Under the pieces are notes generated by a model. That model did not search any database. It saw only the letters and a program-made list of their open reading frames with translations, and was not told where the DNA came from. A stretch of DNA of 36,485 nt, taken from assembly GCA_013288905.1 (NCBI GenBank), contig JABDAW010000006.1:4623-41107 (forward strand). Direction: 5' to 3'. Positions 4,054 to 34,147 of the stretch are shown piece after piece (within the stretch, counting starts at the first letter, position 1; each line of letters opens with the position of its first letter). The stretch comes from Bacteroidota bacterium (GTDB taxonomy: Bacteria; Bacteroidota; Bacteroidia; AKYH767-A; JABDAW01). The translations under genes were made by a program, and so were the position numbers.

Positions 4054-4225
4054 GGTATTAATTCAGATAAAAGAAAAGAGGGGGAAGAAAAAACGTGCCT
4101 ATATAGTATGAGTGATTTTGTGCATTCGATGAGAAATTGACCAAGGAATTTCTGAAGCTTTTATTCAAAAGAGAAATTCTTTTTGGAAATTTTCATTTCT
4201 ACTATTCAATGAAACACTTTGGCAA

Positions 4226-4414
4226 TTCACTCAAAACTTTTGAATGAATCACCAAAACCTTTGGTTATTTACTCAAACGTTTTGATGATTTACCCAAACG
4301 TTTTGGTGGTTCACTCAAAACATTTGGTGGTTTACTCAAACGTTTTGGTGATTCATTCAAACGTTTTGGTGACTCACTCAAACGTTTTGGTGATTCACTC
4401 AAAAGCTTTCAGTG
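4226..4414. repeat. Array 1: nine contiguous 21-bp units, consensus ttcactcaaacgttttggtga
   Basis: Units start at 4226, 4247, 4268 ... 4394 with no phase change; a degenerate tenth follows. AAA...TTT dyad in each. Confidence 0.95.
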
Positions 4415-12057: not shown

Positions 12058-12288
12058 AATACAAATTATAGAAGGCGGAATACAAATTATAGGAAGGGGG
12101 ATGGTATTTATAGGAAGCGGGACGGTAATTACAGGAGAAGGGACGGTAATTATAGGAAGGGGAATGATAATTATAGAAGCTGGGATAATAATTATAGGAC
12201 AGCAGAAAGCAATTATAGAAGGAGGGAAGGACATTATAGAAGGAGGGACAGCAATTATAGAAGGGGGGACAGGCATTATATATTGCAT
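12058..12288. repeat. Array 2: eleven contiguous 21-bp units, consensus ~gacggtaattataggaagggg
   Basis: Units start at 12058, 12079, 12100 ... 12268, all exactly 21 bp. Confidence 0.95.
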
Positions 12289-16876: not shown

Positions 16877-16946
16877 CTTGTCATTCCGTCGAAGGAGGAA
16901 TCCTATTATTATTCCAATAAGATTCCTCCTTCGTCGGAATGACAAG
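16877..16946. repeat. REP/MITE-like hairpin, copy 1
   Basis: cttgtcattccgtcgaaggaggaatc ... gattcctccttcgtcggaatgacaag: 26-bp arms, one mismatch. Confidence 0.93.
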
Positions 16947-17125: not shown

Positions 17126-17293
17126 ACTCCTACGGAGTTTTGGAAGTTGTTGTTCCTTGTTTGCTATTAAGATTTCACTCCTTCGGAGTTTTAGAAAGAA
17201 CCTTAAGAATATTTAAAAACTCCGTAGGAGTGAAATCTTAATAGATAATATGCTCCATCATACCATTAAAACTCCTTAGGAGTGACATGATAT
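17126..17293. repeat. Cluster of cactcctacggagt-type palindromes
   Basis: ttcactcctacggagtttt (17125ff), ctattaagatttcactccttcggagttttaga (17164ff), inverted aaaaactccgtaggagtgaaatcttaatag (17215ff), and aaaactccttaggagtgacat. Confidence 0.85.
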
Positions 17294-17297
17294 GGAG

Positions 17298-17426
17298 AAC
17301 TTTACTAAAGCTTTCAACATTAGTAATGTCAGATGCCGAACTCCTTGCCATTAAAGCCTTCCATCCACATCTCTTTCCTGAAGTTCCTGGTATGGAAATT
17401 CTTTTTCTAAGTATAAGAGTGGAAAT
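17298..17426. repeat. Conserved 5' shell module, copy A (precedes array 3)
   Basis: 17347-17407 gccattaaagccttccatccacatctctttcctgaagttcctggtatggaaattctttttc is identical over 61 bp to 25327-25387. Confidence 0.95.
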
Positions 17427-17972
17427 TCTAAGGTTATATGCACTGTATCTAAGGTTAGTTACAGTGTATCTAAGGTTAGTTACAGTGTATCTAAGGTTAG
17501 ATACGCTGTATCTAAGGTTAGATACGCTGTATCTAAGGTTAGATACGCTGTATCTAAGGTTAGATACGCTGTATCTAAGGTTAGATACGCTGTAACTAAG
17601 GTTAGATACACTGTAACTAAGGTTAGATACAGTGTAACTAAGGTTAGATACAGTGTAACTAAGGTTAGATACGCTGTAACTAAGGTTAGATACAGTGTAA
17701 CTAAGGTTAGATACAGTGTAACTAAGGCTACATACGGAATTTGTAAGCAAGCATACAGAAGATGTAAGCACACATACAGAAGATGTAAGCACACATACAG
17801 AAGATGTAAGCACACATACAGAAGATGTAAGCACACATACAGAAGATGTAAGCAAGCATACTGAAGATGTAAGCACACATACAGAAGATGTAAGCACGCA
17901 TACAGAAGATGTAAGCACGCATACGGAAGATATAAGCACACATATTGATAATGTATGCTTACATTATCAAAT
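17427..17972. repeat. Array 3: ~26 units of 21 bp, two unit families in one register
   Basis: 17427-17741: 15 units near tctaaggttagatacgctgta. 17742-17951: ~10 units near tgtaagcacacatacagaaga. Further degenerate 21-mers extend to about 18056. Confidence 0.95.
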
Positions 17973-18181
17973 CTTATGCTTAGACCTTTCATTCTTAACC
18001 TTGGATCCACTATCTCTAACCTTCTTTTTCCTGAACATAAGGTTGCGATTTCAACTATTAAACATAGAAATTCTTGTCTTTACATTAGATAAGAAATTTC
18101 AAGAGATGGTTCTTCAATAAAGATAAGTTTTTAAATCGCCCTGTTTATTGGGAATTCTGGAAAGAACCTTATTTTGAATTT

Positions 18182-18341
18182 AATGACTGTCGGGTTGTAT
18201 AAACCAAATTTTATCTTGTCATTCCGACGAAGGAGGAATCCTATCCATATTTCTATAGGATTCCTCCTTCGTCGGAATGACAAGTTTACACAGTTTTTAT
18301 ACTGTAATTATATTGTTGGTATAAATAACCCGACAGTCATT
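18182..18341. mobile_element. MITE-like nested palindrome, copy 2 of the same hairpin with 15-bp outer inverted repeats
   Basis: Outer aatgactgtcgggtt / aacccgacagtcatt (perfect). Inner 30-bp perfect arms 18215-18244 / 18255-18284 with a 10-nt loop. Confidence 0.82.
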
Positions 18342-22882: not shown

Positions 22883-22989
22883 CAGCAGGAACATCAGATG
22901 CCGAACTCCTTGCCATTAAAGCATTCCAGCAACATCTCTTTCCTGAAGTTCTTGGTATGGAAATTCTTTTTCCAAGTATAAGAGTGAAA
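22883..22989. repeat. Conserved 5' shell module, copy B (precedes array 4)
   Basis: 22912-22972 matches copies A and C at about 57 of 61 positions. The upstream catcagatgccgaactcctt matches copy A. Confidence 0.95.
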
Positions 22990-23325
22990 TATCCAGGCGT
23001 AAGACCTCAACTCTTATGCATAAGACCCCAACTCTTATGCATAAGACCTCAACTCTTATGCATAAGACCCCGACTCTTATGCATAAGACCTCAACTCTTA
23101 TGCATAAGACCTCAACTCTTATGCATAAGACCCCAACTCTTATGCATAAGACCTCAACTCTTATGCATAAGACCCCGACTCTTATGCATAAGACCCCGAC
23201 TCTTATGCATAAGACCTCAACTCTTATACTTAGATATTTCACTCTTATGCCTAAGAGTTGAAGTCTTATACTTAGATATTTTATTCTTATGTATAGTTCC
23301 TCGACTCTTAACCTTGGTTTTTTAA
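22990..23325. repeat. Array 4: 16 units of 21 bp, core unit ctcttatgcataagacc[c/t]c[a/g]a
   Basis: Ten near-identical units 23011-23220 plus degenerate edge units, all 21 bp. Each core unit holds the 12-bp palindrome CTTATGCATAAG. Confidence 0.96.
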
Positions 23326-23411
23326 GAAAGAACCTTGGAAATAGTATTTACAGATATAGTTCTTTAGCTTTTATGTATAGCTTCTATAGAAGCATACTTT
23401 CTTCCATTAAT
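23310..23411. repeat. Conserved 3' shell module, copy B (follows array 4)
   Basis: aaccttggttttttaagaaagaaccttggaaatagt...cttccattaat; 102 bp, ungapped match to 25809-25910 with about 12 mismatches by eye. Confidence 0.93.
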
Positions 23412-23443
23412 ACCTTGCAAGGAACCCTTGATTTGAATAATAG

Positions 23444-23814
23444 ACCTCTTCGGAAAATAGTAAAGTAAGTATAAAATTTCCTTTTTAACCTTAGTATAAA
23501 ACCTGGCATTGGCTGTAATCCAAACCTTATTCCCTTATTCAATAGGCTTTACTGGGAATTTTGTGGGTAAATGATTATAGCGGGATATTAACCAAAATTT
23601 AAAGGGATAAAATTTAACCACAGAGTACACAGATTAACACAGATTTTGGTCGCCAAGAATCTGTGTTAATCTGTGTACTCTGTGGTTAAATTTTATCCTA
23701 TTGAATCAATGTAAATTAAGCTTCCCACAAAATTCCCAGTAGAACCATTCAATAAGGTAATAAGGTCATCATTGACTCTAATTATTTTCTACTAAGGTTA
23801 TTTTCCGAAGAGGT
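23444..23814. mobile_element. ~370-bp nested inverted-repeat element
   Basis: Layers: acctcttcggaaaata/tattttccgaagaggt; aaccttagta/tactaaggtt; accttattcccttattcaat/attcaataaggtaataaggt (imperfect); actgggaattttgtggg/cccacaaaattcccagt; centre is a 41-bp perfect hairpin. Confidence 0.8.
23605..23698. repeat. 41-bp-arm perfect hairpin (ccacagagtacacagattaacacagatt type)
   Basis: 23605-23645 is the exact reverse complement of 23658-23698; loop ttggtcgccaag. Confidence 0.96.
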
Positions 23815-23858
23815 ATAATCTTTCCTACAATCTGATTAGTGAAGGAGCTGCTTTTAAA

Positions 23859-25223
23859 TTATTTTTCGCGGGTAAATCGTACAAAAACACCTTCTTGTTT
23901 CAGAAGAAATGAAGCAGCATCCGTCTCAAAAAGAAGTTCAATTCCATAATCAAAATTCTTAAAATCATCTTTTGCAATCGCTTCCATCGGAATAGGAATT
24001 TGTCCTGTCGCCTGATTGATTAAAGTAGAATCATGCTTACTGATAGTGATGTGCATCTCTAATCCTTTATTATAATAGATTCCCAAATACTTATTTAATT
24101 CTTCGGGACTGACATTTATGGTTTTATGATTAGAAATAGTATAAGGTTTATTGTAACAAATCTTCAGGACAGTACTCATCACTTCGCTGATAGCTGTCAC
24201 GGTGCCATTAGTACATAAAGCAACGGTAAAATGATCCTCAGGAAAGTATTCCAAAGTAGAAACAAAGCCGTCTATTTGCCCGGTATGACCATACCCAAGC
24301 TTGTTGTAGAAAAGGAAAGTAAACATTCCCATTCCATAATCATCCTTCATTGTTTTCATAAGTTCAAGACTGTTTTTATTAACCAACTTACAGGCAAATA
24401 GAGCATCAATAAATTTATTTAAATCGCTCGGAGTAGCGACTACAGACCCGCTCCCGACAAAGACACTACCGTCGGACTCCTTCATTTTAGCGGCATGATT
24501 CCCGGTAAAGAAATAAGAATAAGACTCCTTGTTCTTCACATCAATTTTAGTGGTGGAATAGGTATTTTCTAATCCAAGCCTGGCAGTTATTCTATCCCGA
24601 AGCGCATCCTTGTAAGACTGATGACAAATCTTTTCAATAATATAAGCCAGCAGATTATAATTTGTGTTGCTATAAGCAAACTTCTCATCCGGCGCAAATT
24701 CGGGAGGCTTGCTTGCAATAAGAGAAAGCATTTCTTCTTGTGTTTTCGGCTGATCCATCCAATCATAAAATGCAGTATCTTCGGTGAAATCAAAAAGCCC
24801 GCTCCTGTGTTGAAGAAGATGAGTGATGGTAATTTTATCAGCATTGGGAAGGCGAGGAAAAAACTTCTTTAGCGTATCCGTAAGACTTAATTTCCCCTCC
24901 TCGACAAGCTCCAAAATCATGGTCGCAGTAAACAGTTTGGAGATAGAACCTATTTTATATTTGGTATCAATGGTGGAATGGATTTTCTCTTCCTTGGAAA
25001 TTAAGGAATAGCCCGTGCTGCAGGTATAAATAATCGTATCATTCTTAGAAACAGCAATGCTGTACATCCCTTTATGATTGCTCATGATGGCGGTAAACAA
25101 ACTATCCAATCTTTCTTTATTAATACTTTGGGCACTACATATATTAATGCTAATACCAGCCAAAAAGAAGGCTGCGAAAACGGTATAAACAATCAACCCA
25201 TTTCTAAAATTAAGGAAACTCAT
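23859..25223 (-). CDS. Serine hydrolase of the class C beta-lactamase / penicillin-binding family
   Basis: KYKIGSISKLFTATMILELVEEGKL contains the SxxK motif; LLQHRSGLFDF, YSNTNYNLLAYIIEKI and GYGHTGQIDGF are family motifs. Signal peptide at MSFLNFRNGLIVYTVFAAFFLAGISINICSAQ sets the start at 25223. Confidence 0.9.
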   Translation of the reverse strand: MSFLNFRNGLIVYTVFAAFFLAGISINICSAQSINKERLDSLFTAIMSNHKGMYSIAVSKNDTIIYTCSTGYSLISKEEKIHSTIDTKYKIGSISKLFTATMILELVEEGKLSLTDTLKKFFPRLPNADKITITHLLQHRSGLFDFTEDTAFYDWMDQPKTQEEMLSLIASKPPEFAPDEKFAYSNTNYNLLAYIIEKICHQSYKDALRDRITARLGLENTYSTTKIDVKNKESYSYFFTGNHAAKMKESDGSVFVGSGSVVATPSDLNKFIDALFACKLVNKNSLELMKTMKDDYGMGMFTFLFYNKLGYGHTGQIDGFVSTLEYFPEDHFTVALCTNGTVTAISEVMSTVLKICYNKPYTISNHKTINVSPEELNKYLGIYYNKGLEMHITISKHDSTLINQATGQIPIPMEAIAKDDFKNFDYGIELLFETDAASFLLKQEGVFVRFTREK

Positions 25224-25277
25224 ATTAGTTATTTGTTTTTGCAAAACTAAAATTTCAAAAGGAAAGGAAGGGTGAAG

Positions 25278-25419
25278 AACTTTACTAAAGTTTCTGACTT
25301 TAGTAAAGTTGAAAGCCGAACTCCCAGCCATTAAAGCCTTCCATCCACATCTCTTTCCTGAAGTTCCTGGTATGGAAATTCTTTTTCCAGGTATAAAAGG
25401 GAAAAATCTAAGGTTAGTT
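25278..25419. repeat. Conserved 5' shell module, copy C (precedes array 5)
   Basis: 61-bp identity to copy A at 25327-25387; also shares the upstream aactttactaaag palindrome pair. Confidence 0.95.
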
Positions 25420-25818
25420 TCCAAGGAACAGTGCATTGTTTCAAAGGAACAGTGCATTGTTTCCAAGGAACTGTGCATTGTTTCCAAGGAACAGTGCATT
25501 GTTTCTAAGGAACTGTGCATTGTTTCCAAGGAACAGTGCATTGTTTCCAAGGAACTATGCATTGTTTCCAAGGAACAGTGCATTGTTTCCAAGGAACAGT
25601 GGATGGTTTCTAAGGAACTATGCATTGTTTCCAAGGAACAGTGCATTGTTTCTAAGGAACAATGCATGGTTTCTAAGGAACTATGCATGGTTTCCGAGGA
25701 ACTATGCATTGTTTCCGAGAAACTGTGTATAGTTTCAAAGGAACTATGCTTAGATGCTAAGGAACTGTGCCTGGTTTCCGAGGAACTATGCTTAGATACT
25801 GTGCATCTAACCTTAGTT
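25420..25818. repeat. Array 5: ~19 units of 21 bp, consensus tccaaggaacagtgcattgtt
   Basis: Units start at 25420, 25441 ... 25777, 25798 with constant period; units become more diverged toward the 3' end. Confidence 0.96.
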
Positions 25819-25910
25819 TTTTAAGAAAGAATCTTGGAAATAGTACTTATAGATATAGTTCATTTCCTTTTATGTTTAGGTTCTATAGAAGGATGCTTTC
25901 TTCTATTAAT
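25809..25910. repeat. Conserved 3' shell module, copy C (follows array 5)
   Basis: aaccttagttttttaagaaagaatcttggaaatagt...cttctattaat; 102 bp, homologous to 23310-23411. Confidence 0.93.
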
Positions 25911-25959
25911 TCGTTGCATCAAAGTAAGTTAAGGGAATAAAGGTTTAAAGGCATAGGGC

Positions 25960-26068
25960 ATAAGGTATAGGGAATAGGGTATAGGGTATAAGGTATAGAG
26001 TATAAGGTATAGAGTATAAACCTTATACCCTATACCTTATACCCTATACCCTATTCCCCATGCCTTAT
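25960..26068. repeat. 48-bp-arm hairpin made of ataggg/ataagg tandem motifs
   Basis: Arms 25960-26007 and 26021-26068 pair with about 3 mismatches; 13-nt loop. Confidence 0.92.
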
Positions 26069-26101
26069 ACCCTATTCCCAAAACACTTACTTTAATTTTT
26101 C

Positions 26102-29994: not shown

Positions 29995-30330
29995 GAAGGC
30001 AATAGAAAATAACTGCTCACATCCTTCTAAACTTTTGGAATTGAGCAAGTAGTATTGATCAGACCATTCCATCTTTGCGGAATGGAGTAAGCGGTACTGA
30101 TCAGACCATTCCCAAACTTCGGAAGGCAGTGATTGATACCGATCATTGTTATCTAAAACATTGGAATGATATGAACAGTGTTTTGTATTGTAGTCCAAAA
30201 CTTTGATTTTAAATGAAAATAACTGACCATTACGGAACACATTTGCGTTTCGCAGTGACCCGTACGACTTAGTCCAAAACAAATTTGCGTTTCGCAGTGA
30301 TCCGTACGACTCAGTCCAAAACACATTTGT
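29995..30330. repeat. Array 6: eight degenerate 42-bp (2 x 21) units
   Basis: Units start at 29995, 30037, 30079, 30121, 30163, 30205, 30247, 30289, each exactly 42 bp. The last two are nearly identical (gtttcgcagtga[c/t]ccgtacgact[t/c]agtccaaaaca[a/c]atttg). Confidence 0.88.
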
Positions 30331-34071: not shown

Positions 34072-34147
34072 AATTAGGAATTACGAATTAGGAATTAGGA
34101 ACCAGGATTCGTAAAGACTCCTAATTCCTAATTTCTAATTCCTAATT
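34072..34147. repeat. 29-bp-arm inverted repeat between exbB and exbD
   Basis: aattaggaattacgaattaggaattagga / tcctaattcctaatttctaattcctaatt, 27/29 pairing; overlaps the exbB stop codon (34142-34144). Confidence 0.92.

Follow-up and report, generated by a model that had tools for sequence, protein, structure and literature searches.

The three 21-bp repeat cassettes A, B and C of the window, i.e. the whole stretch of 36,485 nucleotides that was analysed, are members of one dispersed non-coding minisatellite cassette family, six loci of which were found in the genome that holds the window. This genome (G000, with the window on its contig C6) is a 2.64-Mb assembly that is 59% complete, and two other species of the same genus, G001 and G002, were studied alongside it. 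The cassette is built from an upstream segment, a leader of about 80 bp, an array of 21-bp units and, in some copies, a tail. It is a new variant of minisatellite-bearing cassette, embedded in an unusually dense satellite system with a single period. The best explanation for its features, and one that we consider probable, is a single family of phase-locked cassettes that exchange modules and turn over their arrays in whole units.

Anatomy and distribution of the cassette

All three copies lie on the plus strand. Copy A starts with an upstream segment (17201..17330) that is common only to one further locus, D (91% identity over 115 columns), and that includes dispersed hairpins of the types CTCCGTAGGAGT and ACTTTACTAAAG, which are also found apart from arrays. 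It is followed by the leader (17331..17409) and by a core of 28 in-register 21-bp units (17410..17997) with degenerate edge units; this core contains two unit families, AGGTTAGATACRSTGTAWCTA at 17427-17735 and AGCACACATACAGAAGATGTA at 17730-17944. In copy B, the leader (22896..22974) precedes 16 in-register units (22975..23310) with the main unit TGCATAAGACCYCRACTCTTA and degenerate distal units (TACTTAGATATTTCACTCTTA), and a tail closes the cassette (23310..23411). Copy C has the same layout: leader (25311..25389), 20 in-register units (25390..25809) with the main unit TGCATTGTTTCCAAGGAACWG and again degenerate distal units, and tail (25809..25910).

The first-pass annotation had described 21-bp arrays behind a common 5' module, two unit families within copy A and an ungapped 3' module in B and C, and all of this was borne out. 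The 5' modules of A, B and C match the module consensus with BLAST E values of 2e-38, 1.6e-34 and 2.6e-33, respectively, and their best ungapped 100-bp identities are 87/100 for B and C and 92/100 for A and C. The 3' modules at 23310 and 25809 are identical at 90 of 102 ungapped positions; a clearly common tail is restricted to the pairs B/C and E/F. The annotation had also named recurrence of the same shell with different cores and a fixed 21-bp period at many loci as the confirmation of its reading. A search of the whole genome revealed three more leader loci, D (C38/L004), E (C28/L005) and F (C1/L006), the last with two leader modules in tandem; this pattern is present at the six G000 loci, all of which adjoin an array with a 21-bp period, and it was seen again in G002, where eight loci with another leader family were compared. 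When the sampled sequence was searched with a profile of the leader, no further convincing copies emerged. An IUPAC pattern of its most conserved part matched none of 84,980 GTDB genomes and nothing in IMG/VR, and the 5' module is absent from 60 relatives except for one trivial 31-bp match.

Other features accompany the cassettes in the window. A gene of the beta-lactamase family (PF00144; 23859-25709, minus strand) has a likely start near 25223, and its longest open reading frame begins within array C; thus, automatic gene calls may over-extend into arrays. Dispersed intergenic hairpins of the CACAGATTAACACAGA and CCTCCTTCGTCGGAATGACAA types, which are not specific for arrays, occur at 23612-23700, 16883-16945 and 18217-18290.

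One register from leader to tail, with conflicting modules

The cores had been described as unrelated to each other, and this view has to be revised: once they are anchored at the leader, a weak but clear homology emerges, and the cores are in phase. With position-specific, leader-anchored core profiles (with TTCTTTTT as the anchor in copy A), register 0 was the best of the 21 rotations in 14 of 15 pairs, and not one of 20,000 random register assignments equalled the observed total of core similarity. The distance from the leader to the motif ACCTTRG is 588 bp in A, 336 bp in B and 420 bp in C, corresponding to exactly 28, 16 and 20 units. If the cassettes are written in lines of 21 bp from a fixed point in the leader, the step is kept through the array, the edge units and the tail. 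All copies keep a single 21-bp register from the leader through the core to the tail, and the cores have a common ancestral unit from which they have diverged far more than the leader. The averaged core unit is roughly TGCTTAGTTGCTAAACAACTA, and it is best preserved in edge units such as TGCTTAGATACTGTGCATCTA in copy C and TACTTAGATATTTCACTCTTA in copy B. The in-register homology and the unbroken phase indicate that the cores are turned-over descendants of one array rather than unrelated inserts.

The pace of divergence differs between modules and between copies. Leaders are 0.79 to 0.97 identical, and core identity amounts to 0.87 for C and D and 0.77 for E and F, but to only 0.35-0.50 otherwise. 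Copies A and C have lost the similarity of their cores (0.44) at a leader identity of 0.97, whereas E and F have kept a common core even though their leaders, with an identity of 0.79, are among the most diverged. Core turnover is thus episodic. No consistent polarity was detected that would point to directional growth of the arrays from the leader.

The four modules also disagree on how the copies are related. By the upstream segment A goes with D, by the core C with D, and by the tail B with C; these groupings are strong. The leader groups A with C and B with D, a weaker signal that rests on about three variable sites. Exchange between copies would be the simplest reading of this mosaic, which also fits the suggestion in the first-pass annotation that cores are replaced inside a conserved frame.

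A second species, G002, repeats the cassette design with a different leader, and it has array-specific leaders of its own: among the leader families tested, three match solely beside arrays and a fourth mostly so, unlike two generic hairpin repeats that are spread everywhere in this genome. Eight cassettes with the leader built on ATCGGGTTTTATAACGGG, aligned at the leader end, have homologous units (e.g. GATATTCATCCCGAAGCAAAA, GACTCTTACCCTGAAGAAGAG and GCTTCTCATCCCGACCAAGGA) in one register; none of 5,000 random registers was as good, although only 12 of the 28 pairs rank first singly. Where two arrays share a flank, its orientation to the array agrees in 134 of 151 pairs (28:3, 14:0 and 92:14), pairs that are not independent of each other. 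Since members of the genus are only about 60% identical in protein, their intergenic DNA cannot be aligned. At one syntenic site, between two POT transporter genes, an array of 42-bp units was kept in both G000 (L039:10137-10366) and G002 (L056:5841-6172). It has the conserved motif TGGCATAAAACGGTCGT and a palindrome that is altered on both arms (CCTGAAGTTTCAGG / CCAGAATTCTGG), and it is inverted relative to the genes between the species; the flanking proteins are 45-56% identical.

A genus-wide class of 21-bp arrays

Satellites are considered scarce in bacterial genomes. For a census, we picked arrays with Tandem Repeats Finder (TRF) and counted as satellites those with a period of 10-200 and at least four copies, in samples drawn from fragmented MAGs (roughly 0.5 Mb for G000, 0.17 Mb for G001 and 1.09 Mb for G002). 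The densities were 122, 133 and 202 satellites per Mb, respectively. The class of elements turned out to be wider than first noted: in G002, the genome sampled best, almost all strong tandem arrays have periods divisible by 21 (214 of 220 satellites). The arrays make up about 3-4% of the sampled sequence, they are intergenic, and they are present in 45-59% of the G002 gaps of at least 150 bp, whatever the orientation of the genes. Strong arrays with a multiple of 21 bp were absent from the 43 kb of sister-genus sequence examined and from the single stretches that represented 17 relatives at the order and class level. Arrays of this kind are the dominant intergenic tandem repeat of the genus. 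The window contains further examples, none with an assigned strand: a 21-bp array without the leader family described here (4204..4403), a 21-bp array whose left flank and related unit are common to L027:654-892 and L037:2881-3121 (12058..12280), and two short arrays of the same class with a 42-bp period (30025..30329). Contigs of G002 often start inside a 21-bp array, as in L019, L050, L051, L141 and L148, so that arrays probably break assemblies and their true lengths and numbers are underestimated.

The uniform period is accompanied by very little common sequence. The units fall mostly into small or singleton families, and the information content of rotation-aligned units is only slightly above that of shuffles, i.e. 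there is hardly a common motif. They are moderately palindromic or prone to structure. Indels in the arrays amount to about 2% of substitutions, a figure that is biased by the TRF-based selection.

Satellites in the sense of Subirana and Messeguer (a unit of 10-200 nt in at least four tandem copies) have been surveyed in prokaryotes; Table 1 of that survey gives at most 23 per Mb for bacteria and 89 per Mb for archaea, and the surveyed satellites include transposed families in Leptospira and Methanocella (Subirana & Messeguer 2019, PMC6749651). The arrays described here are satellites by this definition, and those of the survey are likewise non-coding and in part dispersed. At 122-202 per Mb, the genus has more of them than any bacterium or archaeon in that table, with the reservation that the survey applies an extra regularity criterion that was left off here, and a period lock like that of G002 is absent from the sections of the survey consulted (PMC6749651). 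The archaeal Borg tandem repeats are similarly pervasive and fast-evolving and have many unit sequences; however, they consist of perfect units of many lengths, are often located in ORFs and are said to have arisen independently (PMC9879509), whereas the intergenic units found here are imperfect, have a single length and are related to each other within a leader family. Nearly all satellites of the genus have one period and almost no sequence in common. In the leader-anchored families, core turnover, conservation of phase and module exchange can be seen together, which is rarely possible for concerted evolution in bacteria, and what fixes a repeat period becomes a question accessible to direct tests.

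Proposed mechanism and alternative explanations

We suggest that copies of the cassette spread between intergenic sites and that their modules are exchanged and reshuffled by ectopic recombination or gene conversion; segmental duplication could also have spread the same module together with its core. Slippage or unequal crossing-over would add, remove and homogenise units of the arrays in steps of a full 21 bp, so that a new unit variant could take over the core in a given lineage with little change in the single-copy leader. Within families, the fixed period would be inherited. It is probably also held by a constraint on unit length, as is suggested by its uniformity across apparently unrelated families; given the selection bias in the indel figure, this constraint has the standing of a hypothesis. 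The cassette most likely does without a host function, as a selfish or neutral satellite; a structural role is possible but unproven, with units that are hairpin-prone and exactly two turns of B-DNA long. It is tempting to speculate that the genus has a dedicated process or constraint that both produces and keeps hundreds of intergenic 21-bp arrays of free sequence in leader-bearing, module-shuffling cassettes. We put this forward tentatively, as a minority possibility; if true, it would amount to a bacterial satellite system that is defined by spacing and not by sequence.

A rival explanation would be that the arrays exist because a DNA-binding protein that polymerises, DNA topology or the replication and repair machinery needs repeats two B-DNA turns apart, a platform in which sequence is free but spacing is not. 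The period lock of the G002 satellites, its persistence in near-random units with almost no common motif, the low share of indels and the filling of about half of the larger G002 gaps irrespective of gene orientation would all agree with such a platform. However, AA/TT and A+T show no 10.5-bp phasing, common ancestry within families accounts for part of the period lock, and the TRF selection favours arrays without indels; we regard the platform as unlikely, if still worth serious consideration. Two further candidates were rejected: phased A-tract curvature is ruled out by the lack of a 10.5-bp harmonic, and an origin of the 21-mers from 7-bp repeats by the nature of the lag-7 signal of AA/TT, which comes mainly from AA-TT pairs, as would be expected of palindromes, and not from repeated 7-mers.

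The closest known kind of element is the BrickBuilt minisatellite-MITE of Porphyromonas gingivalis, which has 19 dispersed copies, many of them partial; all of these share one 23-nt unit family, and the terminal inverted repeats are of the IS5 type (PMC4596501). Like BrickBuilt, the cassette is an intergenic element of the Bacteroidota in which a leader and a tail flank a spacer-free head-to-tail array at several loci. In contrast to BrickBuilt, its period is 21, no single unit family is present in all copies (most pairs of cores being within the range of 0.35-0.50 given above), the cores have diverged beyond recognition and yet remain in phase, consistent inverted ends were not detected, and some 100-200 arrays of this period occur per Mb. 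MITEPgRS / MITE464 of P. gingivalis is an array-bearing dispersed element as well, but it differs in its period, with internal repeats of 41 nt, and in its flanks, which are themselves repetitive (PMC4596501).

The general anatomy shared with BrickBuilt, with leader, tail and several intergenic copies, would suit a classical MITE, i.e. a non-autonomous transposon with terminal inverted repeats that is moved by a host transposase and carries a minisatellite inside. This is, however, a rather improbable account of the cassette. When the leader is compared to the reverse-complemented tail, two of the six copies show marginal similarity and the other four no more than expected by chance (p 0.02-0.93 for terminal inverted repeats, none of them consistent), and the left ends differ among copies. 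No transposase is attached to the cassette, and in a search for the Y1 family the IS200-type Y1 transposases were only partial or broken in G000, G001 and G002. REP/BIME elements are palindromic intergenic repeats mobilised by RAYT (Y1) transposases, and the richness in palindromes is a likeness; but the cassettes form tandem single-period arrays and not scattered single palindromes, and an intact Y1 (RAYT) transposase for a REP/RAYT system was not found in G000, which is 59% complete, G001 or G002. A reverse transcriptase was likewise not detected in G000 or G002. IS200-like Y1 genes (PF01797) are full-length in most relatives including the sister genus, and those of G000-G002 are partial or contain stops.

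The first-pass annotation had offered, as its other option, that unrelated arrays were born independently at a fixed point. By eye the cores do seem unrelated, and most arrays of the genome belong to different unit families; still, in each of the two leader families tested the cassettes agree in their leader-anchored register and in their unit skeleton, which makes independent birth very unlikely. The mosaic of the copies fits recombination between modules and whole-unit turnover instead.

It is highly improbable that the cassette is a gene in which heptapeptide repeats follow a conserved N-terminus, 21 bp being seven codons. Frames are open through the leader and the array in B (157 aa) and C (171 aa), and there are 4.4 open frames per unit compared to 3.9 in shuffles. 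But the reading frame of copy A stops within its array, several members of the G002 family have in-frame stops when the units are read directly, and the differences among copies of the module are distributed 54/62/48 over codon positions 1/2/3, without an excess at the third position. This distribution, together with the lack of a Pfam match of these frames at the curated cut-off, rules out protein-coding heptad repeats, and the leader module is non-coding. No known RNA family was found in Rfam.

Scarcely credible, finally, is a CRISPR-like immune memory with units copied from invaders: the 24-nt exact stretch of a C unit present in one IMG/VR contig, in what seems to be coding sequence, is set against the absence of IMG/VR matches for four of five other units scanned (the fifth, an AT-rich 21-mer, has three), against unit change by in-register drift and not by replacement with foreign sequence, and against 14-mer matches of the units elsewhere in G000 that are not in excess (5 versus 4 in shuffles). 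For G002 units, 48 such matches were counted compared to 24 in shuffles. The units abut without the variable spacers that separate the constant repeats of a CRISPR array, and the module and seven unit patterns gave no systematic matches to IMG/VR. The match of the C unit, at L179:4709-4729, is taken as chance.

Tandem repeats of another kind are present in the same window. At 25948-26079 and 34072-34147, 7/14-bp arrays form the inverted arms of long hairpins (AAGGTATAGGGTAT .. ATACCCTATACCTT and AATTAGG .. TCCTAAT), and similar 7-bp arrays occur elsewhere in G000 and also in relatives.
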